Positions 24,100 to 48,850 of a DNA stretch of 64,000 nucleotides are shown piece after piece. Source of the DNA: Streptomyces sp. TLI_105 (GTDB lineage: Bacteria > Actinomycetota > Actinomycetes > Streptomycetales > Streptomycetaceae); assembly GCF_900105415.1 (NCBI RefSeq), contig NZ_FNSM01000001.1, forward strand, positions 8,254,001 to 8,318,000, written 5' to 3'. The notes beneath the pieces were generated by a model. The model saw nothing but the letters and a program-made list of their open reading frames with translations, had not been told where the DNA came from and made no database searches. The number at the start of each line of letters is the position of its first letter. Position 1 is the first letter of the stretch. Made by a program: the position numbers and the translations under genes.

Positions 24100-24353
24100 G
24101 ACAGCTCCTCCGTGTCGTGTGCCCGCCGAGCCGTCACCGTCCGGTGGGCCGGATATCTCCAATCTGGCCCCGGTGGGAGCGGGGCGCACGTCGGCCGAAC
24201 GAGTGGCGAGGGGCAGGGGACCCGCCGAACCCCGGCCGCGGGTGCCCTTACGCCCGGAATCGCGGAGTTCTCGGCTGACAAGCATCTGCCATGGCGAGGA
24301 CTTGCCGCGGTGAAGCCTTCACGGCGCCGGTCGCCGGTCGATAGACCCGTCCC

Positions 24354-27300
24354 ATGTACTTCCCCTCTGATGCTTCCGCCTTCCGGCGCAGGCGCCGCAG
24401 GCTGCTCTCGGCAGCCGCCGCGGTGCCCCTGCTGGCGTCGGGTCTGGCCGTTCTGCAGGCACCCGCACAAGCCGCGCCGGTCAAGCCCACCGTTTCCGCC
24501 AAGCCCTCCGCGACCCACAAGGTCACCCTTGTCACCGGCGACGTCGTCACGGTCACCACGTCGGCCGACGGCAAGCAGTCCGCCGACGTCGACCGGCCGG
24601 ACAGTGCCGTCGGCGGCGTCAAACTGCAGCAGATCCAGGGCGACTTGTTCGTCATCCCGGACGAGGCGGCGTCGCTGCTCGCGACGGACAGGCTGGACCG
24701 GCGGCTGTTCAACGTCACCGACCTGATCGAGATGGGTTACGACGACGCCAAGTCGGCCGCGGTACCCCTGATCGCCACGTACGGCCGGTCGACGTCCCGC
24801 GCGGCCGCCGAGCCGAAGGCGCCCCGGGGCAGTAGGCTGACCCGGGAACTCAAGGGCATCCACGGCGCGGTGCTCAGCACCGACAAGCGTCAGGCCCGCA
24901 CCTTCTGGACCTCCCTCGCTCCCCAGGGCAGCCCCACGCTGGGCGAGGGCGTCGCCAAGCTGTGGCTGGACGGCCGGGTCAAGGCCAGTCTGAAGGAGAG
25001 CGTGCCGCTGATCGGCGCGCCCGAGGCCTGGGCGGCCGGCCACACCGGCAAGGGCGTCAAGGTCGCGGTGCTCGACACGGGCATCGACGTCGACCACCCG
25101 GACTTCGCCGGCCTGATCGACGGCACGGCGAGCTTCGTACCGGGCGAGGGCGTCACCGACGTCAACGGTCACGGCACCCACGTCGCCGGGACGATCGTCG
25201 GTTCGGGCGCCGCTTCCGGAGGGGACCACAAGGGCGTCGCCCCCGGCGCGGACCTGTACGTCGGCAAGGTGCTCGGCGGGGCCGAGGGCTCCGGGCAGGA
25301 CTCCTGGGTCATGGCCGGCATGCAGTGGGCCGCCGAATCCGGCGCGGACGTCGTCAACATGAGCCTCGGCGACTCCTACCCCACGGACGGCAGCGACCCG
25401 ATGTCGCAGACGGTCGATGCGCTCTCCGCCCAGTACGGGACGCTGTTCGTCATAGCCGCCGGCAACGCGGGCCCGGAAAGCATCTCCGCCCCCGGCGCGG
25501 CCGCCGCGGCACTGACCGTCGCCGCCACGGACAAGCAGGACCGGCTCGCGAGCTTCTCCAGCACGGGCCCGCTCGCCCACTCCGGTGGCATGAAGCCGGA
25601 CATCGCGGCGCCGGGCGTGGACATCACGGCCCCCCGGTCGCAGGCGATGACCGACGGGGGAAAGGGGCCGTACCGCACCCTCAGCGGCACCTCGATGGCC
25701 ACCCCGCACGTGGCCGGGGCCGCGGCGATCCTGGCCCAGCAGCACCCGGACTGGACCGGCGCGCAGCTCAAGGAACACCTGACCAGCACCGCCAAGGGGC
25801 TGGACGGCGGATACTCCCCTTACGAGATCGGCACCGGCCGACTCGACGTGGCCGCCGCCGTGCGCACCACCGTCCGGGGCACCGGATCGCTCTTCTTCGG
25901 CAACTACACCTGGCCGCACGGGCCCGGCGACGCCGCCGTCACCAAGGACCTGACCTTCACGAACACCGGCGCCGCCGACGTCACGCTGAACCTGGCGCTG
26001 AGCGGCGACGGCGGGCCCTTCACACTGGGAGCCACCAGGGTGACCGTCCCGGCGGGCGGCACCGCCGCCGTCCAGGTGACCGGCGACCCGCAGGCGGCCC
26101 CGGCAGGCCGCCAGACCGGCTACGTGACCGCCGTCGACGCGGTCACCGGGCAGCCGGTGGCCCGCACGTCCCTGGCGCTGCTCGAGGAGGAGGAGCGCTA
26201 CGACCTGAACATCAAGCTGGTCGGCCGGGACGGCGAACCCGCCGCCGGCTGGGTCGGGGTCAACCTGGCCGGCGACAGCTGGCCGTGGAGCGTCTACGTC
26301 GACGGCTCGACCACCCTGCGCATGCCGCCCGGCCTCTACACGGTCGCGGGATACCTCGACGTGGCCGGCGAGAAGGCGGACCGGTCGGGTCTCGCCGTCC
26401 TCGTCGACCCGGAGACCGTGCTCGAGGACGGCTCCGCGGACGTGGTGCTGGACGCGAGCAAGGCACGCCTCCTGCAGACCGAGGCGCCGCAGCGCACCGA
26501 GGACCGCCAGCGCAAGGTCGACTTCAACGTCCACTACGAGGGCACCGACCCGTACCTGGACTACCGCAGCGCGTACGTGCTGCCGCCCACGTACGACGAC
26601 GTCTACGTCTCGCCGACGGAGCCGATGACGCGCGGCGACTTCATGCTCGTCACCCGCTGGCGCAAGGGGGAGCCGCTCCTCGGCCTGAGCACCGCGGACG
26701 GCCGGCTCCGCTTCGAGGCGAAGGTCCAGCCGGGCAGCGCCCTGGGCACCGCGACGGACCGGCTGGACGTCGTCCACGCGGGCGACGGCGCGGCGGCCGC
26801 GTACGACAAGGTGAACGCCGAGGGCAAGGTCGTCGTCGTCGAGCGCAGCGACGAGGTCTCGCCGCAGGAGCGCACCGAGGCGGCGACCGCGGCCGGGGCG
26901 AAGGCGCTGATCGTGGTCAACGACGGCGCCGGAGCCCTGATGGAGTACGTCGGCGAATCGGCCGTTCCGGTCGCCACCGTGCACCGCGACGCGGGCCGGA
27001 CCCTCGTCTCCCTGGCCAAGGCCGGCAAGCTCAGACTGACCGTGGAGCAGACCGAGTACACGCCGTACGTCTACGACCTGACGCGGGACTACCCCGGCCG
27101 GGTGCCGGACCGTGCCCTGGTCTACAAGCCGACCCACGACGACCTCGCCCGGATCGACGCACGCTACTATTCGGCCACGGAGGGCAGGCGGTCGGAAGGG
27201 TACCGGTCCGACTTCACCCTCAGCCCGTCGCTCAACTTCCCCGAGCTCGAATGGCACCCCGGCACCCGCACCGAGTGGGTGACCCCCGGTCAGGTGTGGC

Positions 27301-28088
27301 GGGAGTTCCACACGCAGGGCGTCGACGGAGCCCTGCCGTGGTCGATGGTGTCGGGCAGCAACACGTACGCCAGGGGCAGCACCACCCGGCTGGACTGGTT
27401 CGCGCCGGCGACCCGGCCCGACCAGAGCGAGTCCTTCGGCGTGTACAACTCCCGCTGGCAGAACTACATGACCTGGAACGTGCAGGCGTGGGCCTCCGCC
27501 AGCGACACCATGCGGCTCGGCGGCTACCTGCCCTGGGGCGAGACACCGTCCCACCTCCAGGTGTTCCAGGGCGACACGCTGATCGACGACAACCCGGTCA
27601 GCGGCGACATGCAGTGGGTGGAGGTACCGGCGGGCAACCTGCCCTACCGCGCCGTCCTCGACGTGGAACGGCCCGCTGACGTCTTCCGCCTGTCGACGCG
27701 CACCCACACGGAGTGGACGTTCATGTCCGACACCGTCGAGTCGGACGACTTCGAGCGCTTCTCGGTGCTGAACCTCGACTACAAGCTGGAGACGGACCTG
27801 CACGGTGACCTGAAGTCCCGTGCGCCCCAGCGGATCACGCTCAAGCCGGTGTCGATGGACGGCGGCACCGTGCCGGGCAACGTCACCACGGTGAAGCTGG
27901 ACGTGTCGTACGACGACGGCGCCACCTGGCAGAAGGTGACCCTCGCCAAGGGTGCCGGCGGCTCCTGGACGGGGGCGTTCAGCACGGCCGGGAAGCCCGG
28001 CGGCTTCCTCTCGGTCCGGGCGAGCGCCGCGACGGACAGCGGCTACAGCGTGAAGAACGAGATCATCCGGGCGTACGGCCTGCGATGA
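24354..28088 (+). CDS. Secreted S8 (subtilisin-like) serine protease, large multidomain
   Basis: A 1244-residue exported protease. Residues 1-40 form a signal peptide (RRRRRR, hydrophobic core, AQA cleavage site), followed by a propeptide region to about 205. The catalytic residues are D241 (VLDTGIDVDHPDF), H273 (NGHGTHVAGT), N371 (AAGNAGPES) and S447 (GTSMATPHVAGAAA). Beta-sandwich modules follow, then a PA-like domain at about 800-890 that may hold substrate. No cell-wall sorting signal is seen. The ATG lacks an obvious ribosome site. A strong terminator follows, then a regulator gene. This architecture is typical of large Streptomyces peptidases that digest extracellular protein or process other secreted proteins. 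Confidence 0.92.
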   Translation: MYFPSDASAFRRRRRRLLSAAAAVPLLASGLAVLQAPAQAAPVKPTVSAKPSATHKVTLVTGDVVTVTTSADGKQSADVDRPDSAVGGVKLQQIQGDLFVIPDEAASLLATDRLDRRLFNVTDLIEMGYDDAKSAAVPLIATYGRSTSRAAAEPKAPRGSRLTRELKGIHGAVLSTDKRQARTFWTSLAPQGSPTLGEGVAKLWLDGRVKASLKESVPLIGAPEAWAAGHTGKGVKVAVLDTGIDVDHPDFAGLIDGTASFVPGEGVTDVNGHGTHVAGTIVGSGAASGGDHKGVAPGADLYVGKVLGGAEGSGQDSWVMAGMQWAAESGADVVNMSLGDSYPTDGSDPMSQTVDALSAQYGTLFVIAAGNAGPESISAPGAAAAALTVAATDKQDRLASFSSTGPLAHSGGMKPDIAAPGVDITAPRSQAMTDGGKGPYRTLSGTSMATPHVAGAAAILAQQHPDWTGAQLKEHLTSTAKGLDGGYSPYEIGTGRLDVAAAVRTTVRGTGSLFFGNYTWPHGPGDAAVTKDLTFTNTGAADVTLNLALSGDGGPFTLGATRVTVPAGGTAAVQVTGDPQAAPAGRQTGYVTAVDAVTGQPVARTSLALLEEEERYDLNIKLVGRDGEPAAGWVGVNLAGDSWPWSVYVDGSTTLRMPPGLYTVAGYLDVAGEKADRSGLAVLVDPETVLEDGSADVVLDASKARLLQTEAPQRTEDRQRKVDFNVHYEGTDPYLDYRSAYVLPPTYDDVYVSPTEPMTRGDFMLVTRWRKGEPLLGLSTADGRLRFEAKVQPGSALGTATDRLDVVHAGDGAAAAYDKVNAEGKVVVVERSDEVSPQERTEAATAAGAKALIVVNDGAGALMEYVGESAVPVATVHRDAGRTLVSLAKAGKLRLTVEQTEYTPYVYDLTRDYPGRVPDRALVYKPTHDDLARIDARYYSATEGRRSEGYRSDFTLSPSLNFPELEWHPGTRTEWVTPGQVWREFHTQGVDGALPWSMVSGSNTYARGSTTRLDWFAPATRPDQSESFGVYNSRWQNYMTWNVQAWASASDTMRLGGYLPWGETPSHLQVFQGDTLIDDNPVSGDMQWVEVPAGNLPYRAVLDVERPADVFRLSTRTHTEWTFMSDTVESDDFERFSVLNLDYKLETDLHGDLKSRAPQRITLKPVSMDGGTVPGNVTTVKLDVSYDDGATWQKVTLAKGAGGSWTGAFSTAGKPGGFLSVRASAATDSGYSVKNEIIRAYGLR

Positions 28089-28101
28089 GCCGCACCACGG
28101 G

Positions 28102-28127
28102 GCCCCGGGAAGGCGACTTCCCGGGGC
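28102..28127 (+). terminator. Terminator after the first S8 protease gene
   Basis: GCCCCGGGAA and TTCCCGGGGC form a perfect 10-bp stem with a six-base loop (GGCGAC), starting 14 bases after the protease stop. No T-run follows, as is usual in this genus. Confidence 0.75.
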
Positions 28128-28225
28128 TCTCCTCCTCGCACCCCCTCCCAGCAGGGCCTTTTCACGGTCTGCCGCCATGGCGCATACTCTCCCCGCCGCG
28201 GCAAGTGGAAGAGAGTCGATCGTCG

Positions 28226-29212
28226 ATGCTGGATGCTCTGGGCCTCGAACCCGATGAGGAGCGCGTCTACAGGGCGCTGGTCGGACGGCCGATGACCACC
28301 CCGGTCCTTCTCTCGGACGCGCTCGCCCTGCCCCACGCCCACGTCGACAAGGCCTTGTCGCGCCTGGTCGAGTGGGGGCTGGCGACCAGGTCGGCGGACG
28401 CCCATTTCACCGCCGCGCCGCCGGCCATGGCACTCGGCGCCCTCATCGGCCGGCGCCGGGACGGACTGCGCACGGCCGAGCAGGCCCTGGTGACCCTCGC
28501 CGAGGAACACCGGGCCGCGATGACGGGCAACAGCATCACCGACCTGATCGAGGTCGTCACGGGCGTCGACGCCATCCGCCACCGGTTCCTCCAGGTGCAA
28601 CAGGCGGCCCGGACCCAGGTCCGCTCCTTCATCACCGCACCGTTCGTCGCGCTGCCGCCCGACGAGAACACGGCCGAGCCGATGGCCCTCGGCCGAGGAG
28701 TGCTCTTCCGCGCCGTACTGGACCGCGAGGTGCTGGCCGAGCCCGGCATCGTCCGCGACGCCGTCGACTCCGTGCGCAACGGCGTGCGACTGCGCGTCGC
28801 CGACCACGTGCCGATGAAGCTCGTGCTGGCCGACGCCGATCTCGGCCTGGTCCCGCTCGCGGTCACGCCGGCGGGAGAGCCCGGCGCCGTACTGCTGCAC
28901 CGCAGTGGCCTCCTGGACGCGCTGGACGCGCTGTTCGAGACGGTGTGGCGCACGGCCCACCCGCTCGAGCTCTCGGACCCCGGGGGCGAATCGGAACCCA
29001 CCGTCGAGGTCGGTCCGCAGGGCCCGACCGAACTCGACCGCAAGATCCTCGCGCTGCTCCTGGCCGGGCTCACCGACCTGACGGCCGCGGCCCAGCTCGG
29101 CCTTTCACCGCGTACGCTGCACCGGCGCCTGCGCCACCTCATGGACATGGCCGGGGTCCGGACCCGGATGCAGCTGGGCGCACACGCCGTGCGGAACGGC
29201 TGGACGGCGTGA
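28226..29212 (+). CDS. TrmB/LuxR-type regulator paired with S8 protease 1
   Basis: The 328-residue protein begins with a TrmB-like winged-helix segment (LGLEPDEERVYRALVGRP, about 4-70), has a middle domain of about 190 residues with LGRGVLFRAVLDREVL, and ends with a LuxR-like helix-turn-helix (LDRKILALLLAGLTDLTAAA, then LGLSPRTLHRRLRHLM). The middle domain resembles the phospholipase-D-like sensing part of TrmB proteins. The start is an ATG at 28226; the longer frame reads into the terminator. It has a sister gene at 30383-31336 beside the second protease, so both probably control protease expression (inference). Confidence 0.8.
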   Translation: MLDALGLEPDEERVYRALVGRPMTTPVLLSDALALPHAHVDKALSRLVEWGLATRSADAHFTAAPPAMALGALIGRRRDGLRTAEQALVTLAEEHRAAMTGNSITDLIEVVTGVDAIRHRFLQVQQAARTQVRSFITAPFVALPPDENTAEPMALGRGVLFRAVLDREVLAEPGIVRDAVDSVRNGVRLRVADHVPMKLVLADADLGLVPLAVTPAGEPGAVLLHRSGLLDALDALFETVWRTAHPLELSDPGGESEPTVEVGPQGPTELDRKILALLLAGLTDLTAAAQLGLSPRTLHRRLRHLMDMAGVRTRMQLGAHAVRNGWTA

Positions 29213-29248
29213 CCTCGTTTCACGGAACAGGGGACGAAGGTGCCGTTC

Positions 29249-29935
29249 TCAGGCGAGGACGTTGATGGCACGGGCGACCACCAGACCGAGAATGAGCAGG
29301 GAGACGAGGGACTGGAGGCCCATGGCGATCTTGGCCCAGGGAGCCAGGGGCATCACGTCGGTGGGGCTGAAGGCGGTGGCGTTGGTGAGGCCGAGGTAGA
29401 GGTAGTCGACGTAGCGGGGCCGCCAGCCGGCGCTTGCCAGTTCGGGGTTGAGCTGCTGGGGGAAGGCGAGTGCGGGCGTGCGGGGGAGCCGATGGGCACG
29501 GGCGGCGGCGCCACCGCCGTCGAGTTCGAAGTACAGCAGGGAGAAGGCCAGAACGGTACAGGCCCACACGGTGCCACCGGTCTGCAGCAGGCCGGTGGCG
29601 GAACTGGTCTCCTTGCCGCCCCGGAGGATGTCGTCGATCAGCTGGACGGTGGACCAGACGGCGCTGAGCGCGAGAACGCCCACCAGGGCGATCGACAGGG
29701 TGCGCAGGGCGGTCGAGCGCCGGTCGATCCTGCCCGGGTCGCCGGCGACGAGCGCGAGCAGAAGCAGTCCTTCGACGGTCGGGAGCACCCAGCGGGGCGC
29801 CAGACGGAGGTCGTCGGGGAGCAGGATGGTCAGCACCATGGCGGTGACGACGGCCATGCCCATCGGCCAGCGGGCCTCGCCGACGGGCTCACGCCGACTC
29901 CGGCTCTCGGGCGGCTCGGAGATGCGTCCGGTCAC
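29249..29935 (-). CDS. DUF1345-like membrane protein
   Basis: A 228-residue protein with about five membrane helices. The segment YLYLGLTNATAFSPTDVMPL near residue 178 resembles the conserved part of DUF1345, whose members look distantly channel-like; function is unknown. The start is a GTG at 29935 with AAGGG ten bases before it. It is convergent with the first regulator (36 bases between stops) and lies between the two protease-regulator pairs. Confidence 0.7.
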   Translation of the reverse strand: MTGRISEPPESRSRREPVGEARWPMGMAVVTAMVLTILLPDDLRLAPRWVLPTVEGLLLLALVAGDPGRIDRRSTALRTLSIALVGVLALSAVWSTVQLIDDILRGGKETSSATGLLQTGGTVWACTVLAFSLLYFELDGGGAAARAHRLPRTPALAFPQQLNPELASAGWRPRYVDYLYLGLTNATAFSPTDVMPLAPWAKIAMGLQSLVSLLILGLVVARAINVLA

Positions 29936-30171
29936 GGTGGCGGCCCTTACGTTCGAGTGCGGAGTGGTTGTCGCCGTCCTGCTCCCGGAAGATATAGCGG
30001 GCCGGCGCGCGGGCGGCGGATCTCACGCCCCGTGCCGTGACCCGGGGGCCGCGACACGCCGTCCGGCCGCGCCTCCCGTACGACCCTCCAGCGTGTCGCC
30101 CCCGGCCTCGCCCGGCGCCGGGGGCGCGGAGGAGGCGGTCTCTCCCCCCCCGCGCACCCGCCTTCACATTC

Positions 30172-30255
30172 CTAGAAGAACCCGAGCTTCTTGGGGCTGT
30201 AACTCTGGAGGATGTTCTTCGTCTGCTGGTGGTACGGCCAGTGAACCCGCGCTGA
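30172..30255 (-). pseudogene. Orphan C-terminal fragment of an unknown protein
   Basis: The minus-strand frame ending at 30172 closes with YHQQTKNILQSYSPKKLGFF, unlike the Arg/Pro-rich shadow peptides around it and made from noticeably more AT-rich DNA. No coding sequence continues upstream: the frame runs into ordinary intergenic sequence. It looks like the tail of a lost gene. The rest of the 447-base gap (29936-30382) holds no gene I can support. Confidence 0.4.
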
Positions 30256-30382
30256 CCAGTGAGCTGGGTGGCATGTGCCGTTTCTTGGGGGAGTTGGTCC
30301 GGGAACGGCCCGTGTGTCTCCCCAGCGCTCATGGCTGCGGGCTGGGTCACCGCCAGGTGGCCGGCCCCGGCCCGGCGGCGGG

Positions 30383-31336
30383 TCAGATCCAGCCGCGGCG
30401 TGCCGCGACGACACCGGCCTGGAAGCGGTTCACCGCGCCCAGAAGTTCGTGGAGGCGGCTCATGCGCCGACGCATGGTGCGGACCGACCAGCCGAGCTGG
30501 CGGGCTATGGCCTCGTCCTTGAGGCCGCTGACCAGCAGGGTGAGCACCAGACGATCCTCCTCGCCGAGCGGGTCCTCGGCGGGGGCGTCGAGTGGCAGGG
30601 CCTGTTTCCAGCACAGTTCCCAGTAGTCGGTGAGGGCGTCCAGCAGCGTGGAGGGGCGGATGACCGCAGCGCGCACGCCGTTGAGATCCAGGGAGAGCGG
30701 CATCAGCGCCAGTCGGCGGTCCGCGATGGCCAGTTTGATCCGCAGGCCCGGCATCACCCGGGCCTGCTCGCCACGGCGCACGAGTCCGCGGATGTCCTCG
30801 AGCACCCCCGGCCACTCCAGCGCCTCGGGGGCGTAGACCGCGCGGTAGCGCACGCCGCGCCCCAGCGCCGTGCTCTCCACCGGATTGGAGGTGGTCAGTG
30901 CGTACGGCGGCCGGTCCAGTGTCATGACGTCCTCGCGCGCCTCCTGCTGGAGGCGGACGAACCAGCGGCCGAGCGCCTCGCGGCCGGTGGCGATCTCCAC
31001 CTCGTCCTCCCCGGCGGTGCCGGCCTGGGTCGCCGCGAAGAGGCGGGACAGCTCGCCCGCCGCCGAACGGACCCGGTCCAACTCCGCTGTCCTGTTCCGT
31101 ACCAGGGACTCGACCGCGGCTCCCGGCTCGATCGCCGCGTACCGGCGGCGGACCCCCGCGAGCCGCCCGACCAGGCCGTGGTCGTGCAGCCGGTCCAGCG
31201 CCCTGGCGGCGCGGAGGGGGGAGCAGCCGAGGTCGGCGGCGAGCTCGGCCGGGGCCGCCGTACGCCGGGTCAACACGGCCCGGTAGACGCTCTCGTCGAA
31301 CGGATCGATGCCTGCCGCGGTGAGCTCGTTCGTCAT
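30383..31336 (-). CDS. TrmB/LuxR-type regulator divergent from S8 protease 2
   Basis: The 317-residue product has the same plan as the regulator at 28226: winged helix with AAGIDPFDESVYRAVLTRR at residues 7-25, a middle domain sharing TALGRGVRYRAVYAPEAL, and a C-terminal helix-turn-helix (VLTLLVSGLKDEAIARQLGW, then SVRTMRRRMSRLHEL). Both end in a short Gly-Trp tail (GWI here, GWTA in the other). Start is the ATG at 31336. Only 91 bases separate it from the divergent protease gene, a region containing a 6-bp inverted repeat, so direct control of that protease is likely. Confidence 0.8.
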   Translation of the reverse strand: MTNELTAAGIDPFDESVYRAVLTRRTAAPAELAADLGCSPLRAARALDRLHDHGLVGRLAGVRRRYAAIEPGAAVESLVRNRTAELDRVRSAAGELSRLFAATQAGTAGEDEVEIATGREALGRWFVRLQQEAREDVMTLDRPPYALTTSNPVESTALGRGVRYRAVYAPEALEWPGVLEDIRGLVRRGEQARVMPGLRIKLAIADRRLALMPLSLDLNGVRAAVIRPSTLLDALTDYWELCWKQALPLDAPAEDPLGEEDRLVLTLLVSGLKDEAIARQLGWSVRTMRRRMSRLHELLGAVNRFQAGVVAARRGWI

Positions 31337-31344
31337 ATGCGGAT

Positions 31345-31364
31345 CCTGGCCCACTTGTGCCAGG
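31345..31364. promoter_or_regulatory. Inverted repeat in the divergent regulator-protease promoter region
   Basis: CCTGGC (31345-31350) and GCCAGG (31359-31364) are perfect arms eight bases apart, between the regulator start (31336) and the protease start (31428). This is a reasonable place for an operator used by the regulator on its own and the protease promoter. I found no copy before the first protease. Confidence 0.35.
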
Positions 31365-31427
31365 TGCAGCAATGGGCCGCCAAGGTCCGTTGTACGGAGA
31401 GTGACTTCGGCGCTAGGACTTCTCCCC

Positions 31428-34400
31428 ATGGCCAAGAACCCACGAAGAAGCCGACGTCTGGTGGCCGCCACGGTCACCACCGTCGCGCTGGCCGGGACGC
31501 TCACCGCGACACCCGGCACCGCGACCGCGAAGTCACCCGACCCGAACCAGCGGGTCATCGTCGAGCTGTCCGGAGACGCCGCCGTGGCAGCCGCCCCCGG
31601 CGGCTCGCTCACCTCCCTGACCGCCGGTACCACCTCCGCCGTCGGCGACGCCCGACGCGCCCTGGCGGCACGTCAGGACGGCTTCGTCAGGACGGTGCGG
31701 CAAGCCGGACTCCACCCCGCCGCACCCCGCAGACTCGGCCTGCTCGTCAACGCCGTGGCGATGACGGTGCCCGCCTCCGAGACGGCACGGCTGGCCGCGC
31801 TGCCGGGCGTCATCGCCGTCCGGCCCGACACCCGGATACAGGTGCGCACGGACACCAGCGTCCCGCTGACCGGCGCACCCGACGTCTGGAAGCGCGAGGA
31901 CCCGGCCGGGGTGAAGACCACCGGCAAGGGCACCGTCGTGGCGGTCCTGGACAGCGGCGTGGACTACGGCCACCCCGACCTGGGCGGCGGCTTCGGCGAG
32001 GGCCACAAGGTCGTCGGCGGCTTCGACTTCGCCAACGGCGACGACGACCCGATGGACGACAACGGCCACGGCACCCACGTCGCGGGCATCATCGCGGGCA
32101 AGGCGGCCAGGAAGGGAGGCGTCACCGGCATGGCGCCCGACGCGCGCCTGCTGGCCTACAAGGTCATCGGCGCCGACGGCAGCGGCTACACCTCCGACAT
32201 CATCGCCGGCATCGAGGCGGCGGCCGACCCGGCCAACCCCCACCCGGCCGACGTCATCAACATGAGCCTCGGCGGCCCCGGTGACGGCACCGACCCGCTG
32301 GGCCGCGCGGCGACCGCCGCCGTGCGGGCCGGAGTGGTCGTCGTCGCTGCGGCCGGCAACGAAGGGCCCGGCAGCGGCACCGTCAGCACTCCGGCTTCGG
32401 CCGACGGCGTCATCGCGGTCGGCGCCTCCACCAGTGGGCTGCGGATCCCCAGCGCGTACCTGGCGGGCAAGGAGCCCGAACTGATCCAGACGTACCGAGG
32501 CGTCCTGTCCGCGAACCCGCCCCGGACACCGGTCACCGCGCCGCTCGTGGACGTCGGCGCGGGCACCGCCGAGGACTGGAAGCGGATCGGTGACGTACGG
32601 GGCAAGATCCTGCGGGCCGACATCCTCGTCGCGCCCAGTACGGACGTCCTGAGCCAGAGCGACATCGACTGGGCACGCGAAGCCGAGAAACGCGGCGCGC
32701 TCGCCGTGCTCGGCGGCCTCCCAGCCGGAGGCGGACCCGTGCTCGCCGCCACACCGGGAACGGTCGGGGCCACGGCCACCCCCGCCCGCCCCGACCTCAC
32801 CAGGACCGCCGCCTCCGGCGACTCGCTGCGCATGGACCGCCTGGTCGTCATGGGCATCGACACGACCCAGTACGCCCAGCTGAGCCGCGAACTGGCCGCC
32901 GGAAAGGTGTCCGTCACCCTGCGCGGCACCGACTCCACCGACGAGATCGCCTCTTTCTCGTCGCGCGGACCCGGCACCGGCTTCGGCCTCAAACCCGACC
33001 TGGTCGCACCCGGCGTGGAGATCCGCTCCACGATCCCCACCTCGATGTACGCACCCGGTGTCTACCGCATGTCGGGCACCTCGATGGCGAGCCCGCACGT
33101 CGCCGGAGCCGCCGCCCTGCTGCGCCAACTGCGCCCGGGCCAAGACCCCGACGAGATCAGGTCCGCACTGGTCGGCACAGCGAAGCAGCTCGCCGGCACC
33201 GGCCCCACCGTCCAGGGCAACGGACGGCTCGACGTGGCCGCCGCGGCGTCGGCCACCCTCAGCGCCTCCCCGACGAGCGTGTCGTTCGGCCTCGCCGACC
33301 TGGCGGACAAGACCGTCGGCGGCACCGCGACGGTACGCCTGGCCAACCCCGGCGAGAAACCGCTGACCGTCACCCTCAGCAGTACCGGGCCGACTACCGT
33401 GTCTCCGCCGCGGGTCACCGTCCCCGCCGGCGGGTCCACAACCGTCCACGTCACCCTGCGCGCCGACCGCCCGGCCACCGACACGGAGATCAGCGGCCGG
33501 ATCACGGCCACCCCCGCGCGAGGCCCGGCCCTCCGGGTGCCGTACCTGCTCGTCGTCCGGCACCTGGTCGTCCAGGCGTCCCCCGATCCGAGCGACGGCC
33601 GCTCCACCGTGCACGTCGCCGCCCCGGCCGCCCTGAACGCGCCGCCGGAGATCAGGGTCACACCGCCGCACGGCAAGGCCTTCACGCTGCCCACCACCAT
33701 GAACGGCGCCGGCTACTACCAGGCCGACGTGACCGGGAAGGCGGCCGGTGCCTACCAGTTGGCCGTCCGGGCCACGACCACCGACGGCCGGCGGATCACC
33801 GGAACCGGCGCCTTCGAGGTCACCCCCGTCGGCAGCCGCGGCGACCGCTGGGAGCCCATCGGCCCGAACAGCGAGGCCGGTCACCTCGCGCTCTCGCCCG
33901 CCCGGCCGAAGCAGGCCGTCGTGACCCAGTTCCGGAAGGCCGCCCCCTGGCTGACCACCGACGGCGGCGCCAACTGGCGCCAGGTGGGCAGGCTGCCGAT
34001 CGCCGACGGCAACGGCACCGGAGCGGTCGTGGTCGACGCCCGCCGCCCCGATCGCTGGTGGTACGCCGTGAACACGGTCGTCGACCCCACCCGCCGGGGC
34101 ACGATCCTGCGTACCGACGACAACGGCCGCACCTGGCGCAAGCTCGACGTGCCCGACGCGCACATCGACGAGTTCGTCGCGGACGATCAGACCCGCACCC
34201 TCGCCGCGATCGTCGACGGCGCACTGCTGGTCAGCACGGACGCGGGCGACAGCTGGGCGACGTACCCCACCGGCGTCACCGGTGACGTCCGCGACGCGAC
34301 CCTCGTCGGCGACACCCTGTACCTGGCGACCTTCGACAGCGTCTGGCGCATCGACGGCGTCGGCAAGGGCGACCCCGGTACGGCGCACCTCGTCCTCGAC

Positions 34401-35651
34401 GAGCCGGTGAACACCATCCGCGGCATGGCGGCCGACTCCACCGTGGTGGCGGCCTACGTCCCCGGTACGGGCGTCCGCGGCTCCTACGACAAGGGCCGCA
34501 CCTGGTCCACCCTGCTGCCCCTGGCGGAGGGCGGCAACGGACTGTCCGCCTCCGGCGGCGACCTGTACCTGCGCGCGCTGTTCGGCGCCGGGCAGGTGAG
34601 CCACGACCACGGCAGGACCTGGAAGCCCGTGCCCGCCCCCTCGAAGGCCGCCATCGCGATGGACTACGACCGCTGGGCCGACGGCTCGGTGACCGTGTCC
34701 AGCGAACAGGACGGCCTGTACCGCGGCTCGGCCGACGGCACCGGATACCGGAGGATCGGCGTCCAGGGCCTGACCACCTTCGCCCTCGCGGCCGGCGGCG
34801 ACCAGCTGCTCGCCGGAACGGTGAGCGGCACCTACCGCACCACGATCCCCGTCGCCGGCCCCGAGTGGGGCCGGTCCGGGGCGGAGGGCATGACCGGTCT
34901 TCTCACCTCGCACATCGCCGTCTCGCCCGAGGACACCAAGGTGGTGTGGCAGGTCCGGCGCACCGCGACCGGTCTCTTCGAGGTCTCCCGCAGTGGTGAC
35001 GCCGGCCGGACCTGGCAGGTGAAGGGCACGTCGTCGGAGATACCGACCTCGCTCCTGGTGCACCCGGCCGACCCGGACCGGGTGGCGATCAGCTTCAGGA
35101 GCATCTTCGGCGACGGACTCTTCTCGACTTCCGACGGCGGCAGGACGTGGAAGAACCTCTTCCACGAGAGGTCCTTCGATGCCATGGCCGGTGACCCGCG
35201 CGACCCGCGGCGCCTCTGGCTCGGCAACGCCTCGGGCCTCTACCGCTCGGACGACGGCGGCGTCACCAAGACCAAGGTCGCCGAGGGTCCCGTCTCCGCG
35301 ATCGTGATGGACGGCCGACGCCTGGTCGTCGGCGGATCGTCCGTCCGGGTCAGCACAGATGACGGCAGGACCTTCCGCACCGCCGACACCGGCCCGCTCG
35401 CGGTCCACGTCTCGGACCTGCTGCGGGTGAACGGAGCGCTCTACGCGGCCACCGCCCGCTCGACCGCGTCCGGACTCGTCCAGGGCGGCCGGGGCGTACT
35501 GCGCAGCACCGACAACGGCCTCACCTGGGAGAACATCTCGAGCGGTCTGCAGAACACCGACACCACCAAGCTGGCCGCCGCCCCCGACGGCCGCACGCTC
35601 TACGTCGGCGCGGTCGACGGCGGGGTACACCGCCTGAAGCTACGCCGCTGA
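31428..35651 (+). CDS. Secreted S8 serine protease with C-terminal BNR-like beta-propeller
   Basis: A 1407-residue exported protease. A signal peptide covers about residues 1-34 (RRSRRLVAATVTTVALAGTL, AxA site), then an inhibitor-I9-like propeptide to about 140. The catalytic set is D175 (VLDSGVDYGHPDL), H214 (NGHGTHVAG), N311 (AAAGNEGPG) and S552 (GTSMASPHVAGAAA). A PA-like insertion lies between N311 and S552, at about 345-500. After a beta-sandwich, residues from about 830 to the end hold many repeats of the type STDGGRTWK, as in sialidase/VPS10-type propellers, which may bind substrate or sugar. AGGA lies nine bases before the ATG at 31428. Confidence 0.92.
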   Translation: MAKNPRRSRRLVAATVTTVALAGTLTATPGTATAKSPDPNQRVIVELSGDAAVAAAPGGSLTSLTAGTTSAVGDARRALAARQDGFVRTVRQAGLHPAAPRRLGLLVNAVAMTVPASETARLAALPGVIAVRPDTRIQVRTDTSVPLTGAPDVWKREDPAGVKTTGKGTVVAVLDSGVDYGHPDLGGGFGEGHKVVGGFDFANGDDDPMDDNGHGTHVAGIIAGKAARKGGVTGMAPDARLLAYKVIGADGSGYTSDIIAGIEAAADPANPHPADVINMSLGGPGDGTDPLGRAATAAVRAGVVVVAAAGNEGPGSGTVSTPASADGVIAVGASTSGLRIPSAYLAGKEPELIQTYRGVLSANPPRTPVTAPLVDVGAGTAEDWKRIGDVRGKILRADILVAPSTDVLSQSDIDWAREAEKRGALAVLGGLPAGGGPVLAATPGTVGATATPARPDLTRTAASGDSLRMDRLVVMGIDTTQYAQLSRELAAGKVSVTLRGTDSTDEIASFSSRGPGTGFGLKPDLVAPGVEIRSTIPTSMYAPGVYRMSGTSMASPHVAGAAALLRQLRPGQDPDEIRSALVGTAKQLAGTGPTVQGNGRLDVAAAASATLSASPTSVSFGLADLADKTVGGTATVRLANPGEKPLTVTLSSTGPTTVSPPRVTVPAGGSTTVHVTLRADRPATDTEISGRITATPARGPALRVPYLLVVRHLVVQASPDPSDGRSTVHVAAPAALNAPPEIRVTPPHGKAFTLPTTMNGAGYYQADVTGKAAGAYQLAVRATTTDGRRITGTGAFEVTPVGSRGDRWEPIGPNSEAGHLALSPARPKQAVVTQFRKAAPWLTTDGGANWRQVGRLPIADGNGTGAVVVDARRPDRWWYAVNTVVDPTRRGTILRTDDNGRTWRKLDVPDAHIDEFVADDQTRTLAAIVDGALLVSTDAGDSWATYPTGVTGDVRDATLVGDTLYLATFDSVWRIDGVGKGDPGTAHLVLDEPVNTIRGMAADSTVVAAYVPGTGVRGSYDKGRTWSTLLPLAEGGNGLSASGGDLYLRALFGAGQVSHDHGRTWKPVPAPSKAAIAMDYDRWADGSVTVSSEQDGLYRGSADGTGYRRIGVQGLTTFALAAGGDQLLAGTVSGTYRTTIPVAGPEWGRSGAEGMTGLLTSHIAVSPEDTKVVWQVRRTATGLFEVSRSGDAGRTWQVKGTSSEIPTSLLVHPADPDRVAISFRSIFGDGLFSTSDGGRTWKNLFHERSFDAMAGDPRDPRRLWLGNASGLYRSDDGGVTKTKVAEGPVSAIVMDGRRLVVGGSSVRVSTDDGRTFRTADTGPLAVHVSDLLRVNGALYAATARSTASGLVQGGRGVLRSTDNGLTWENISSGLQNTDTTKLAAAPDGRTLYVGAVDGGVHRLKLRR

Positions 35652-36519: not shown

Positions 36520-38220
36520 ATGCGCATCCTGCTCATCGCCAGCAGCTTCAACAGCCTCACCCAGCGCGTCCTGGTCGAGCTGCGCGACCGCGGGCACACC
36601 GTTCCCGTGGAGGTCACCCCCGACGGGGCCGCCGTGCGCGAGGCCGTGGCGCGCCACGCGCCCGAGCTGGTCGTGGCCCCCATGTTGAAGGCCGTCGTGC
36701 CCCGCGATGTGTGGACGGCGCGCCGTTGCCTGATCGTGCACCCGGGGCCCGTGGGCGACCGGGGCCCGTCCTCACTGGACCACGCGATCCACGACGGGGT
36801 CGAGGAGTGGGGCGTCACCGTCCTCCAGGCAGACGACGAGATGGACGCGGGCGACGTCTGGGCGTCCGCGACCTTCCGCGTCCCGGAGGTCGGCAAGAGC
36901 GATCTGTACCGCAACGAGCTGTCCGACGCCGCCGTGGCCGCCGTGCTCCTCGCCGTCGAGAGGGTCGCCGCCGGGGCGACACCGCGTCCGCAGACCGGCG
37001 AGATCCGCGCCCGTCCCGCTCTCCGCCAGGAGGAGCGTCGGATCTCGTGGGGCGAGGACACCACCGAGACCGTCCTGCGCACCCTACGGGCCGCCGACTC
37101 GCAGCCCGGCGTACCGGACCGGCTGCTCGGCGCCGAGTGGTTCCTGCACGGCGGCCACGCGGAGGACGGTCTGCGCGGGCGGCCCGGTGCGCTGCTGGCC
37201 ACCCGGGCGGGTGCGGTCTGCCGCGCCACCGTGGACGGCGCGGTGTGGATCCCCGAGCTCCGCGCCCGCACCGGCCCCGGCAGGGCGCGGGCCTGCAAGC
37301 TCCCCGCCGCCCTGGCCCTCGCGGGCCGGTTGCCGGAGCTCCCCGAACTGCCGGCACCCGCCGACCCGGCGCCAGGTCGGCGGACCTGGTCCGACATCCG
37401 GTACCGCGAGCAGGGACCGGTCGGCGTCCTGTCCTTCGCGTTTCCCGGCGGAGCGATGAGCACCGACCAGTGTCGCCGCCTGCTGGACGCGTACGAGACC
37501 GCCTGCGGCCGCCCCACCTCCGTCCTGGTGCTCGGCGGGCAGCGCGACTTCTTCTCCAACGGCATCCATCTGCACGTCATCGAGGCCGCCGCCGACCCCG
37601 CCGCCGAGTCCTGGGCCAACATCAATGCGATGAACGACCTGGTCGAGGCGGTTCTCACCACGACCGACCGGCTCGTCGTGAGCGCGATCGGCGGCAACGC
37701 CGCCGCCGGCGGGGTGATGCTCGCCCTCGCCGCCGACGAGGTCTGGTGCCGTTCGGGGTCGGTGCTCAATCCGCACTACCGGCGCATGGGTCTGTACGGA
37801 TCGGAGTACTGGACCCGCACCCTGCCGGGGAAGGTGGGCGAGGCCCTGGCCGCGCGCCTCACCGAAGAGGCCCGGCCGGTGTCCGCGGCGGCATCGCTCG
37901 ACATGGGGCTGGTCGACCGGGTCGTCGACTGCGGACCCGGGGAGTTCGCCGCCGAGGTCACCCGATTGGCCCTTCGCCTGGCATCCCGTGGCGGTCTCCA
38001 GCCGCGGATCGCGGCGAAGAAGGCGGAGCACGAGCGCCGGGAGTCCGTCGCTCCCCTTGCGGCCCACCGTGAGCGGGAGCTCTCCCGGATGCGGTCGATC
38101 TTCGACGACCCCGCCGCGAGCTACCACGCACGGCGCCGGGCCTTCGTCCGGAAGGAGGCACCCCGAGCGCCGCTCCCGAACGGCCCAGGTGCGGGCGCGG
38201 GCAGATCGGCCGACTGTTAA
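36520..38220 (+). CDS. hypX: HypX/HoxX: CO-forming hydrogenase maturation enzyme
   Basis: A 566-residue two-domain enzyme. The N-terminal half resembles formyl-tetrahydrofolate-dependent formyltransferases (MRILLIASSFNSLTQRVLVE) and carries the HypX motif HPGPVGDRGPSSLDHAI. The C-terminal half, from about residue 300, is a crotonase-like domain with the HypX signatures SNGIHLHVIEAA and GGNAAAGGVMLALAADEVW, NPHYRRMGLYGSEYW. Characterised HypX makes formyl-CoA and decarbonylates it to CO, the active-site ligand of [NiFe] hydrogenases matured in air. GGAAAGG lies seven bases before the ATG. It is 56 bases upstream of hhyS on the same strand, so its product would feed this hydrogenase. Confidence 0.92.
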   Translation: MRILLIASSFNSLTQRVLVELRDRGHTVPVEVTPDGAAVREAVARHAPELVVAPMLKAVVPRDVWTARRCLIVHPGPVGDRGPSSLDHAIHDGVEEWGVTVLQADDEMDAGDVWASATFRVPEVGKSDLYRNELSDAAVAAVLLAVERVAAGATPRPQTGEIRARPALRQEERRISWGEDTTETVLRTLRAADSQPGVPDRLLGAEWFLHGGHAEDGLRGRPGALLATRAGAVCRATVDGAVWIPELRARTGPGRARACKLPAALALAGRLPELPELPAPADPAPGRRTWSDIRYREQGPVGVLSFAFPGGAMSTDQCRRLLDAYETACGRPTSVLVLGGQRDFFSNGIHLHVIEAAADPAAESWANINAMNDLVEAVLTTTDRLVVSAIGGNAAAGGVMLALAADEVWCRSGSVLNPHYRRMGLYGSEYWTRTLPGKVGEALAARLTEEARPVSAAASLDMGLVDRVVDCGPGEFAAEVTRLALRLASRGGLQPRIAAKKAEHERRESVAPLAAHRERELSRMRSIFDDPAASYHARRRAFVRKEAPRAPLPNGPGAGAGRSADC

Positions 38221-38276
38221 GCAAGACCCAGGCCCGACACGAGGCCTTCGCCCCATCCCTCCTCAGGAGGCGACCC

Positions 38277-39359
38277 ATGAGCGCAGTACAACCGGCCCCG
38301 GTCGAGGACCAGGGTGCCGCACCCGGCAGCGAAGAGAAGCCGATCCACATTCTCTGGATCAACGCGGGTCTGAGCTGCGACGGCGACTCGGTGGCCCTGA
38401 CCGCCGCCATGCAGCCCAGCATCGAGGAGATCGCCCTCGCGGGGCTGCCAGGGCTGCCCCGGATCGCGGTCCACTGGCCGCTGATCGACTTCGAGTGCGG
38501 TCCGGTGGGCGGCGCCGACACGTTCATCGAGTGGTTCTTCAAGGGGGAGCGGGGCGAGATCGACCCGTTCGTGCTGGTCGTCGAGGGATCGATCCCGAAC
38601 GAGGCCATCAAGCAGGAGGGCTACTGGAGCGGCTTCGGCGACGACCCGGAGACCGGTCAGCCCATCACCACCAGCGAGTGGATCGACCGGCTGGCCCCCA
38701 AGGCCCTCGCGGTGGTCGCGATCGGCACCTGTGCCACGTACGGCGGCATCCACGCCATGGCGGGGAACCCGACCGGCGCGATGGGCCTCCCGGACTATCT
38801 CGGCTGGGACTGGAAGTCGCATGCCGGCATCCCCATCGTGTGCGTGCCCGGCTGCCCCATCCAGCCGGACAACTTCGCGGAGACGCTGACCTACCTGCTC
38901 TATCAGGCGGCCGGCTCCGCGCCCATGATCCCGCTGGACGACAAGCTGCGTCCGACCTGGCTGTTCGGGGCGACCGTGCACGAGGGCTGCGACCGGGCCG
39001 GCTACTACGAGCAGGGCCAGTTCGCGTCGACGTACGACTCGCCCAAGTGCCTGGTGAAGCTCGGTTGCTGGGGCCCCGTCGTCAAGTGCAACGTCCCCAA
39101 GCGCGGCTGGATGAACGGTGTCGGAGGCTGTCCGAACGTCGGCGGCATCTGCATCGCGTGCACGATGCCCGGATTCCCGGACAAATTCATGCCGTTCATG
39201 GACGAACCTCCCGGCGGCAAGGTCTCCAGCACCGCCAGCGGCGTGTACGGCTCCGTCATCCGCCGCCTGCGGACCATCACGGCCAAGACCGTGGACAAGG
39301 AGCCGAAGTGGCGGCACACCGGCGAGCGCATCACCACCGGCTACCGGCCGCCCTGGTGA
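38277..39359 (+). CDS. hhyS: Group 1h [NiFe] hydrogenase small subunit
   Basis: A 360-residue Fe-S subunit that passes electrons from the NiFe site. The proximal cluster motif is GLSCDGDSV: C34 is present but the usual second Cys is D37, the 3Cys-1Asp coordination known for actinobacterial-type oxygen-tolerant hydrogenases. Other ligands are in IGTCATYGG, CVPGCPIQPDNF, HEGCDRAGYY, KCLVKLGCWGPVVKCN and GGICIACTMPGFPDKF. There is no twin-arginine signal and no membrane anchor, so the enzyme acts in the cytoplasm. AGGAGG lies six bases before the ATG. It pairs with hhyL, 90 bases downstream. This group oxidises atmospheric H2 with high affinity. Confidence 0.95.
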   Translation: MSAVQPAPVEDQGAAPGSEEKPIHILWINAGLSCDGDSVALTAAMQPSIEEIALAGLPGLPRIAVHWPLIDFECGPVGGADTFIEWFFKGERGEIDPFVLVVEGSIPNEAIKQEGYWSGFGDDPETGQPITTSEWIDRLAPKALAVVAIGTCATYGGIHAMAGNPTGAMGLPDYLGWDWKSHAGIPIVCVPGCPIQPDNFAETLTYLLYQAAGSAPMIPLDDKLRPTWLFGATVHEGCDRAGYYEQGQFASTYDSPKCLVKLGCWGPVVKCNVPKRGWMNGVGGCPNVGGICIACTMPGFPDKFMPFMDEPPGGKVSSTASGVYGSVIRRLRTITAKTVDKEPKWRHTGERITTGYRPPW

Positions 39360-39449
39360 CCGCGACGCCATCGCGCCACCCCCGCAGGACCCCCCATCCA
39401 CCCCACTGTTCGCGAAGTCGAAGAGTTGACGAAGGGCATCACAGCGACC

Positions 39450-41234
39450 ATGGCATCTCCGGCGAAGACGACGGGTGACGGCTCCGGCCTTGTGGAGATG
39501 GCCTGGGATCCCATCACCCGGATCGTGGGCAGCCTCGGCATCCACACGAAGATCGATTTCAAGCAGAAGCGCGTCGCGGAGTGCTACAGCACGTCCTCCG
39601 TCTTCCGCGGCTACAGCGTCTTCATGCGGGGCAAGGACCCCCGCGACGCGCACTTCATCACCAGCCGCATCTGCGGCATCTGCGGTGACAACCACGCGAC
39701 CTGCTCCGTGTACGCGCAGAACATGGCGTACGGCGTGAAGCCCCCGCACCTCGGTGAGTGGATCATCAACCTCGGCGAGTCCGCGGAGTACATGTTCGAC
39801 CACAACATCTTCCAGGAGAACCTGGTCGGGGTCGACTACTGCGAGAAGATGGTCCGCGAGACCAACCCCGGCGTCCTGGAGCTGGCCGAGCGCACCGAGG
39901 CGCCGCACGCCGCCGAGCACGGCTACCGCACGATCGCGGACATCATGCGCTCCCTCAACCCCCTCGAAGGCGAGTTCTACCGCGAGGCGCTCCAGGTCAG
40001 CCGCTACACCCGGGAGATGTTCTGTCTCATGGAGGGGCGGCACGTCCACCCCTCCACCCTCTACCCCGGTGGTGTCGGCACGGTCGCGTCCGTGCAGCTG
40101 TTCACCGACTACATGAGCCGCCTCATGCGCTACGTGGAGTTCATGAAGAGGGTCGTCCCGCTCCACGACGACCTCTTCGACTTCTTCTACGAGGCGCTGC
40201 CCGGCTACGAGGAGGTCGGCCGCCGTCGTGTGCTGCTCGGCTGCTGGGGCGCGCTCAACGACCCCGAGCACTGCGACTTCACCTACGCCAACATGACCGA
40301 CTGGGGCCGGCGGATGTTCGTCACCCCCGGTGTCGTCGTCGACGGCAAGCTGGTGACCAACGACCTCACCGAGATCAACCTCGGCATCCGCATCCTGCTC
40401 GGCAGCTCGTACTACGAGGACTGGCAGGGGCAGGAGCAGTTCGTCACCCACGATCCGCTGGGCAACCCGGTCGACCCGCGCCACCCGTGGAACCAGCACA
40501 CCATCCCGGCCCCGCAGAAGCGGAACTTCGACGACAAGTACAGCTGGGTCATGTCCCCGCGCTGGTTCGACGGCAAGGACCACCTGGCACTGGACACCGG
40601 CGGCGGCCCCATCGCGCGCCTGTGGTCCACCGCGCTCTCCGGCCTCGTCGACATCGGCTACATCAAGGCCACCGGGCACAGCGTCGTCATCAACCTCCCC
40701 CGGACGATGACCAAGCCGGAGACCACCTTCGAGTGGAAGATCCCGAAGTGGAGCAACGCCCTGGAGCGCAACCGCGCCCGGACCTACTTCCAGGCGTACG
40801 CGGCCGCCGTCGCCCTGCACTGCGCCGAGAAGGGCCTGGAGGAGGTCCGCGCCGGACGCACGCAGACGTGGGAGAAGTTCGAGGTGCCGGACGAGTCCAT
40901 CGGCGTCGGCTTCACCGAGGCCGTACGGGGTGTCCTCTCGCACCACATGGTCATCAGGGACGGCAAGATCGCCAACTACCACCCCTATCCGCCGACGCCG
41001 TGGAACGCCTCCACGCGGGACACGTTCGGGACCCCCGGTCCGTACGAGGACGCGGTGCAGAACACCCCGATCTTCGAGGAGAACACGCCCGAGAACTTCA
41101 AGGGCATCGACATCATGCGCGCCGTGCGCAGCTTCGACCCCTGCCTGCCGTGCGGCGTCCACATGTACACGGGCAACGGCAGGACCGTGAAGCAGATGCA
41201 CGTGCCCACCGGCCTGAGCGGTCTGGCCGGATGA
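39450..41234 (+). CDS. hhyL: Group 1h [NiFe] hydrogenase large subunit
   Basis: A 594-residue catalytic subunit. The NiFe ligands are C75 and C78 (RICGICGDN) and C565 and C568 (DPCLPCGVH). Maturation endopeptidases cut after H571, removing 23 residues (starting MYTGNGRTVKQ); the gene at 44470 is the likely protease. Sequence such as GLVEMAWDPITRIVGSLGIH matches the group 1h type. I chose the ATG at 39450; an in-frame TTG at 39426 would add eight residues but has its AG-rich sequence too close. The stop overlaps the NifU-like start (ATGA). Enzyme location is cytoplasmic, possibly membrane-associated through an unknown partner. Confidence 0.95.
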   Translation: MASPAKTTGDGSGLVEMAWDPITRIVGSLGIHTKIDFKQKRVAECYSTSSVFRGYSVFMRGKDPRDAHFITSRICGICGDNHATCSVYAQNMAYGVKPPHLGEWIINLGESAEYMFDHNIFQENLVGVDYCEKMVRETNPGVLELAERTEAPHAAEHGYRTIADIMRSLNPLEGEFYREALQVSRYTREMFCLMEGRHVHPSTLYPGGVGTVASVQLFTDYMSRLMRYVEFMKRVVPLHDDLFDFFYEALPGYEEVGRRRVLLGCWGALNDPEHCDFTYANMTDWGRRMFVTPGVVVDGKLVTNDLTEINLGIRILLGSSYYEDWQGQEQFVTHDPLGNPVDPRHPWNQHTIPAPQKRNFDDKYSWVMSPRWFDGKDHLALDTGGGPIARLWSTALSGLVDIGYIKATGHSVVINLPRTMTKPETTFEWKIPKWSNALERNRARTYFQAYAAAVALHCAEKGLEEVRAGRTQTWEKFEVPDESIGVGFTEAVRGVLSHHMVIRDGKIANYHPYPPTPWNASTRDTFGTPGPYEDAVQNTPIFEENTPENFKGIDIMRAVRSFDPCLPCGVHMYTGNGRTVKQMHVPTGLSGLAG

Positions 41235-45000: not shown

Positions 45001-45020
45001 AGACCGAAACGGAGAGCACC

Positions 45021-45137
45021 ATGCACAAGAACGTCCTCGGCGCCGCAGTCGCCGCCACCGCCGCCCTGGCCGTCGTGGCCGTCGTCGTCGGAGTCCTCCC
45101 CGACCTCCGGCGCTATCTGCGCATCAGCAGGATGTGA
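45021..45137 (+). CDS. DUF6893-like small membrane protein
   Basis: A 38-residue protein, MHKNVLGAAVAATAALAVVA and onward, with a single membrane helix and a basic tail (RRYLRISRM). The ATG at 45021 has GGAGAG five bases before it; an earlier ATG at 44997 overlaps the protease stop and would add eight residues. DUF6893 proteins are found in actinobacteria; function is unknown. It is the only membrane-spanning product in the hydrogenase island, so it could tether something to the membrane, though that is a guess. Confidence 0.65.
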   Translation: MHKNVLGAAVAATAALAVVAVVVGVLPDLRRYLRISRM

Positions 45138-45272
45138 CGCACCCGCGGTCCGGTGGCGGAGGCTGCACCGAACGGACGACACCGCCGTCCGGTCCCGGCG
45201 CGCCGGGCGTGCCCCCGCCACCACCCGTTCTCTAATGGCGCCCGAGACACCCCGCGCCCAGGACGGAGACCG

Positions 45273-45668: not shown

Positions 45669-45670
45669 GC

Positions 45671-48840: not shown

Positions 48841-48850
48841 GGAGACACCC

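Follow-up and report, generated by a model that had tools for sequence, protein, structure and literature searches.

Secreted subtilases paired with TrmB–LuxR-type regulators in Streptomyces sp. TLI_105: a recurrent actinomycete module with candidate operators and a possible peptide signal

Does a secreted protease of an actinomycete have a switch of its own? Secreted actinomycete proteases are important for the turnover of soil, for development and for industry, and the switching of individual proteases is mostly unknown. The question is raised by a locus of Streptomyces sp. TLI_105 in which two genes for large secreted subtilases of family S8, here called S8-A and S8-B, each adjoin a gene for a putative regulator, RegA and RegB, respectively. 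The locus lies in a stretch of 64,000 nucleotides (positions 8254001-8318000 of a genome of 8.88 Mb), which is referred to as the window. Judging from the sequence, we consider it probable that each pair consists of a one-component regulator and a neighbouring protease gene that it activates, and that each would represent a self-contained switch.

A preliminary description of the window had claimed two secreted subtilases, each with an adjoining TrmB-type regulator of a common plan, and the sequence and the Pfam matches confirm this claim (Table 1). The active-site Asp, His, Asn and Ser motifs can be read directly in both S8-A and S8-B, and both match PF00082. RegA and RegB are 35% identical over their full length, and named Streptomyces have proteins that share 98% identity with RegB. 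Pair A is arranged in tandem, as had been described; at the place of the proposed intervening terminator, a hairpin was found that lacks a T-run and is only a possible terminator. Pair B is divergent, and its start codons are exactly 91 base pairs (bp) apart.

Table 1. Proteases, regulators and predicted regulatory elements of the locus, in window positions
Feature	Position	Strand	Basis
S8-A, secreted subtilase with PA domain, 1244 amino acids	24354..28088	+	Pfam PF00082 (E 5.7e-64), PA domain; sequence
RegA, TrmB-type winged helix, middle domain and C-terminal helix-turn-helix, 328 amino acids	28226..29212	+	Pfam; orthologues adjoin S8-A
RegB, TrmB-type with phospholipase-D (PLD)-fold middle domain and LuxR-type C-terminal helix-turn-helix, 317 amino acids	30383..31336	-	Pfam, structure model
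S8-B, secreted subtilase with C-terminal BNR/sortilin-like propeller	31428..35651	+	Pfam PF00082 (E 1.6e-65), PF15902, PF02012
Candidate operator A, bipartite dyad GACAAG-CATC-TGCC-AT-GGCG-AGGA-CTTGCC, upstream of S8-A	24277..24306	+	alignment of 10 S8-A upstream regions
Predicted S8-A promoter: -35 TTCACG 24318-24323 (weak consensus), 18 bp, -10 TAGACC 24342-24347; leaderless start	24318..24347	+	predicted from a block conserved in 10 orthologues
Hairpin between S8-A and RegA, possible terminator without T-run	28103..28126	+	sequence; kept in orthologue alignment
TGCCGCCATGGCGCA core in predicted RegA promoter, like the inner half-sites of operator A	28170..28184	+	12-locus alignment; putative function
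Candidate operator B, bipartite dyad GGCCCA-CTTG-TGCC-AGG-TGCA-GCAA-TGGGCC (S8 strand)	31348..31378	+	footprint in 55-sequence alignment
Predicted S8-B promoter: -35 TTGTAC 31390-31395, 18 bp, -10 TAGGAC 31414-31419	31390..31419	+	predicted
Predicted RegB promoter: -35 TTGCTG 31372-31367, -10 CAGGAT 31348-31343; overlapped by operator B; leaderless	31343..31372	-	predicted; conserved in alignment

Is the adjacency of regulator and protease gene a property of this window or of the regulator family? RegB homologues (E to 1e-25) were present in at least 73 of 296 genomes in a class-wide search, with seven candidates scored per genome; the resulting sample leans to the nearest homologues, and its per-genome counts are lower bounds. 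The window genome and five redundant genomes of one genus (g126: G224, G237, G292, G302 and G348) were set aside; of the 110 rows that were left, the first 100 were taken with up to 6 kb per side, some flanks being short. S8 genes were scored in these loci using 16 of the 18 S8 domains of the TLI_105 genome, chosen by motif, as queries. An S8 gene was the immediate neighbour of the regulator at 65 of the 100 loci (62 by gene order and three by frame coordinates). In addition, S8 genes occupied 62 of 194 adjacent gene slots versus 6 of 572 slots lying two to six genes out, the loci not being independent of one another. Orientation changes between clades and adjacency is kept: 47 of the 65 S8-adjacent loci are divergent, seven are tandem with S8 first, six are tandem with the regulator first, and five are convergent. 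The gene caller was home-made and lost some genes, namely, five regulators outside the own-genome set and the RegB of one locus (L307), which was recovered with a hidden Markov model (HMM). In a quick FastTree tree of 141 regulators, which has many long branches, the S8 label needs 21 changes versus 45 in shuffles, and none of 500 shuffles was as low. The earlier proposal of a recurring S8-linked regulator module is strongly supported by the S8 count at homologues together with the single-copy candidate operators that precede each S8 gene.

The same adjacency is seen among nearer relatives and within genomes. S8 adjoins RegB at 53 of the 59 named orthologue loci (L059-L116 and L126; identity of about 59% or more), a count obtained with a set of queries of which at least one (L028) was in the wrong frame. 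These loci belong to Streptomyces, Catellatospora, Hamadaea, Actinacidiphila, Catelliglobosispora, Phytomonospora, Actinocatenispora, Allorhizocola and one unclassified actinomycete. Among the six loci lacking S8, three (L091, L110 and L126) end at a contig edge on the S8 side and one (L114) has a truncated regulator gene. The TLI_105 genome contains 18 S8 genes, three of which are paired with regulators; the S8 gene of the third pair spans 1858234-1859016 and is oriented divergently to its regulator gene at 1859943. Two genomes of family f58, presumably Micromonosporaceae, have seven pairs each among the loci examined.

Two wider readings of the locus were rejected. A DUF1345-like membrane protein encoded between the pairs is not part of the module, as tblastn detected it at none of 67 RegA and RegB orthologue loci at E 1e-5 (the flanks of RegA loci L138-L144 were only 1.5 kb long). 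Nor do the two pairs form one conserved double locus: they are approximately 690 kb apart in genome G004, and a second regulator occurs in only four (L093, L130, L133 and L134) of 76 named loci with flanks of up to 10 kb.

Candidate operators stand before both protease genes, and the stronger case is that of operator B. Its dyad is nearly invariant across 55 aligned upstream regions (that of L085 was misplaced in the alignment, its start having been set differently), and nine f58 loci retain the layout, mostly with GGCCG arms. In the TLI_105 genome, operator B is the sole site with zero mismatches, and the next best site has three mismatches, with which the reversed-pattern control finds sites as well. 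Among 150 Streptomyces genomes, B sites with up to three mismatches were found in nine, which are exactly the nine genomes with RegB (E to 1e-100). Nine of the ten B sites in these genomes lie within approximately 45 bp before RegB. The tenth, in genome G501 (L306 3129-7435), lies upstream of a second S8-B-type gene of 1393 amino acids as called, and no regulator of the RegA/RegB family was found in the surrounding 15 kb. This gene keeps the 11-bp gap between operator and -35 box and the 18-bp spacer, and its -10 box reads TATGAA. Because an S8-B gene without a regulator carries the site, we believe that the B site serves the protease gene and not the regulator alone, and we regard this case as the best single piece of evidence. 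Of 72 B-type sites in total, 67 have a recognised promoter, and 65 of these show the 11-bp distance between operator and -35 box. Five of 74 loci (L096, L099, L110, L114 and L177) yielded no B-type site; two of these, L096 and L099, have a diverged version by eye.

Operator A is present in all ten aligned S8-A upstream regions (the window, L235, L240 and seven of seven fetched orthologues), in each of which the operator core itself served to locate the site. The right arm CTTGCC is constant, the left arm varies (GGCAAG, GACAAG, GTCAAG or GACAAA), and the centre is TGCC-AT-GGCG. Operator A is the only site within three mismatches in its own genome, and the reversed-pattern control gave none; the operator B pattern does not match again near S8-A. 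Furthermore, the TGCCGCCATGGCGCA core of the predicted RegA promoter is kept exactly or with one base changed in 10 of 12 aligned loci.

The two operators differ in sequence and share the layout 6-4-4-(2/3)-4-4-6. Each half-site combines an outer part of 6 bp with an inner part of 4 bp, and approximately 9 bp, nearly one helical turn, separate the centres of the two. The sequence TGCC or CGCC of the inner part is common to operators A and B and to the dyad of a third group of regulators, the C clade, and the outer arm is clade-specific. In both cases, the distance from the end of the operator to the predicted S8 -35 box is exactly 11 bp and the -35/-10 spacer is 18 bp long; the dyad centres lie approximately 62 bp (A) and 65 bp (B) upstream of the start codons. 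All promoter positions are predicted from conserved hexamers, and the S8-A and S8-B messages would be leaderless according to these positions. Because two operator sequences occur in one geometry, we infer one mechanism, which would most simply be activation from upstream.

According to the mechanism that we propose, a cytoplasmic regulator, probably as a dimer, would bind the bipartite dyad, whose outer 6-bp and inner 4-bp arms are spaced by roughly one helical turn. The S8 gene would be activated from a dyad centre approximately 62-65 bp upstream of the predicted transcription start, which is a position typical of activators that touch RNA polymerase. RegB bound at operator B would also sit inside its own promoter and limit its own synthesis; such self-repression is suggested because operator B covers the predicted RegB promoter. 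The opposite sign must also be considered. In archaea, TrmB can repress or activate, according to the promoter, and RegA and RegB might likewise repress their proteases, with the ligand-free form keeping S8 off and the ligand releasing it; the overlap of operator B with RegB's own predicted promoter is indeed a repressor position. However, the sites before S8-A and S8-B stop short of the predicted -35 box and do not overlap the S8 promoter, and the constancy of the gap is what polymerase contact would demand. Repression of the protease is, in our judgement, unlikely.

Several results weigh against a dedicated activating switch. No S8 neighbour was found at 35 of the 100 class-wide homologues in the flanks examined, a few of which are cut by contig ends, and the regulator family is not tied exclusively to S8. 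Loci L100 and L103 keep operator B and the outward predicted promoter and have no S8 gene in the flanks examined. Because the RegB–S8-B sites of different species are orthologous, they do not count as independent events. For most pairs outside the B clade, a single-sequence dyad scan scored no higher than shuffles did. Of 61 Streptomyces genomes, 46 contain some RegA relative (to 1e-30), and most of these relatives belong to the C clade, which is 43-47% identical. The C-clade dyad, GGCGGG-N4-CGCC-GT-GGCC-N4-CCCGCC, occurs at 10 of 11 loci with S8 and also at 24 of 31 loci listed without S8, some of which have flanks of only 1.5 kb and may hide a missed S8 gene; in this clade, the dyad is not S8-specific. 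Because the C-clade dyad, to judge from its distribution, is probably mainly autoregulatory, S8 would be a common but not an obligatory partner there. Finally, the within-genome distances of paired regulators and of their S8 domains are uncorrelated (r 0.06 in 95 comparisons), and 700 of 2000 permutations were at least as high.

This absence of co-variation between paralogous pairs, together with the C-clade regulators that often stand without S8, would also suit a passive co-inheritance of regulator and protease with no regulatory link between them. Such co-inheritance is difficult to reconcile with sites that are unique and conserved, with a B site that occurs, among 150 genomes, in exactly the nine that have RegB, and with a distant second S8-B gene that has the same site at the same spacing. 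We therefore consider it very improbable, and we retain activation of the neighbouring protease gene as the preferred reading.

Some regulators without S8 adjoin other genes for secreted proteins by eye, including BNR-type proteins, one metalloprotease-like protein and very large secreted proteins. Five S8-less relatives (L118, L120, L181, L206 and L262) are encoded divergently to secreted proteins by eye, and some of these proteins have BNR-like repeats that recall the S8-B C-terminus. A different possible protease–regulator pairing was also noticed by eye in the TLI_105 genome, where a large gene resembling those of ATPase-type regulators comes after an unpaired S8 gene (L053 6863-11934).

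How would such a regulator read both its operator and its signal? The TrmB winged helix (PF01978) is matched in both regulators at 27.5 and 27.3 bits versus a cut-off of 25.6. The GerE domain remains below its cut-off in both (17.2 and 22.2 bits versus 23.5), and three of six paralogues scanned (L045, L046 and L049) pass it. In a structure model of RegB, the only regulator modelled (the plan of RegA rests on sequence), a winged helix is followed by a long linker helix, a PLD-fold domain and then directly the helix-turn-helix. TrmBL2 and TrmB match the model over residues 1-250, and residues 252-317 match four-helix NarL/LuxR-type domains with a root-mean-square deviation of 0.7-2.0. The claim that the regulators carry DNA-binding domains at both ends is thus upheld by Pfam for the TrmB end and by the NarL/LuxR-type fold of the RegB model for the other. 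PLD enzymes have the catalytic motif HxKxxxxD; at this position, RegB reads R199-x-K201-x4-D206, in which the histidine is missing and K201 and D206 are invariant in a 60-sequence alignment. In the same alignment, the C-terminal helix-turn-helix carries many invariant or near-invariant positions. Within each half-site, each DNA-binding domain would probably read one arm: the well-conserved C-terminal helix-turn-helix the similar inner TGCC core, and the more variable TrmB winged helix the clade-specific outer arm. The PLD-fold middle domain would receive the signal, for which we prefer a peptide as ligand, such as a product of proteolysis.

The middle domain had been described as a small-molecule sensor, perhaps for a peptide or a sugar. 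A sensing role is plausible from the modelled TrmB/PLD fold, and the two ligands have fared differently. If the domain bound a sugar as archaeal TrmB does, the proteases would be under carbon-supply control. Sugar is the less likely signal because the additional sugar-binding Pfam domain of TrmB is absent among the Pfam matches to E 1 in RegA and RegB; moreover, the PLD-fold domain of the RegB model leads straight into the helix-turn-helix. We consider sugar sensing quite unlikely.

A peptide has gained indirect support by analogy with a sister clade of regulators (L267-L298; 29-33% identical to RegB, and 40% in one partial match). This clade adjoins short open reading frames that encode a signal-like N-terminus and a D-x-x-W-G/Q tail, some of them in tandem repeat (NDTGWG-type three times, DAGWQ repeats, DLPWT three times), in the manner of pheromone precursors. 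A fixed rule for such peptides gave 15 matches, spread over 14 of 32 sister-clade loci (125 kb), and one match looked spurious by eye; this count is favoured, as the rule was written after the first examples had been seen. The same rule, for which the control was untuned, gave no match in 124 control loci (1411 kb) that include the 100 class-wide loci and partly overlap, the TLI_105 S8 regions being present twice. Because the sister clade adjoins short secreted peptides of this type, peptide sensing is the leading idea for the PLD-fold regulators, and a plausible one. The relatives of the sister clade in the TLI_105 genome are L045, L046, L049 and L052, and some of the peptide tails end in D.

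A stricter version, compatible with activation of the protease gene by its regulator, is a self-reporting switch, in which the regulator would respond to one particular peptide released either from or by its own S8 protein. The contrast between the sister-clade loci and the control would favour it, as would the position of the L042 regulator, which lies between Xaa-Pro aminopeptidase-like and prolyl oligopeptidase-like genes by eye. However, no peptide gene of the D-x-x-W type was found at the S8-paired loci scanned, which also counts against the preferred reading. The C-terminal tail common in A-type S8 proteases resembles that of an unpaired S8 protease of the same genome and is probably structural, and no importer gene was noticed beside the pairs, though no search was made for one. 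Within the S8 partners, the D-x-x-W motif gave scattered internal matches only. We find this stricter version rather doubtful. In a group of Streptomyces regulators (L042, L215, L222, L232 and L241), the regulator gene is divergent from an Xaa-Pro aminopeptidase-like gene by eye.

A broader proposal can be advanced tentatively, as a possibility to which we give slightly more credit than to the self-reporting switch. The PLD-fold TrmB-LuxR proteins might constitute a large actinomycete peptide-sensing family unrelated to RRNPP, in which one clade would use D-x-x-W-G/Q pheromones, the other would read products of giant subtilases, and each protein would grip a bipartite operator by its two DNA-binding domains.

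Known systems resemble these pairs in part. Compared with archaeal TrmB and TrmBL2, RegB additionally has a C-terminal LuxR/NarL-type helix-turn-helix, neither regulator shows a sign of the extra sugar-binding domain, and the common partners are secreted proteases. Unlike LuxR/NarL-type regulators, RegA and RegB have no Pfam match to receiver, acyl-homoserine-lactone or ATPase domains, and their second DNA-binding domain is N-terminal. The pairs also resemble NprR-NprX-NprA of Bacillus, in which a cytoplasmic regulator is coupled to a secreted protease gene. However, NprR has a TPR peptide-binding domain, to which RegA and RegB have no Pfam match; the RegB model has the PLD fold in its place, and RegB has no linked peptide gene of the D-x-x-W type. 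Both proteases are ordinary secreted S8 subtilases (PF00082) by domain, and they differ from the family in the coupling to a dedicated regulator and, in S8-B, in the C-terminal propeller. Searches of open-access literature, judged by title and the start of the abstract, gave no description of the S8–regulator pairing or of the D-x-x-W peptides.

Many secreted proteases appear to have a dedicated one-component switch, and candidate operators can be named for two of them. Each pair has its own candidate control site, which suggests small self-contained switches for protease production, perhaps with peptides as the trigger. If the peptide reading is true, actinomycetes possess a family for linear-peptide signalling beyond those already described. 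In addition, the distant S8-B gene with a B site suggests that such sites could be used for finding targets across a genome.

Two observations made by eye concern the neighbourhood of the locus. Downstream of RegB, the minus strand (window positions approximately 30164-30260) has a short frame that ends in WSARVHWPYHQQTKNILQSYSPKKLGFF and may represent a small protein or a gene remnant. Beside the locus, a long run of genes on the same strand (window 36520-51430) resembles a [NiFe]-hydrogenase cluster with its maturation genes.

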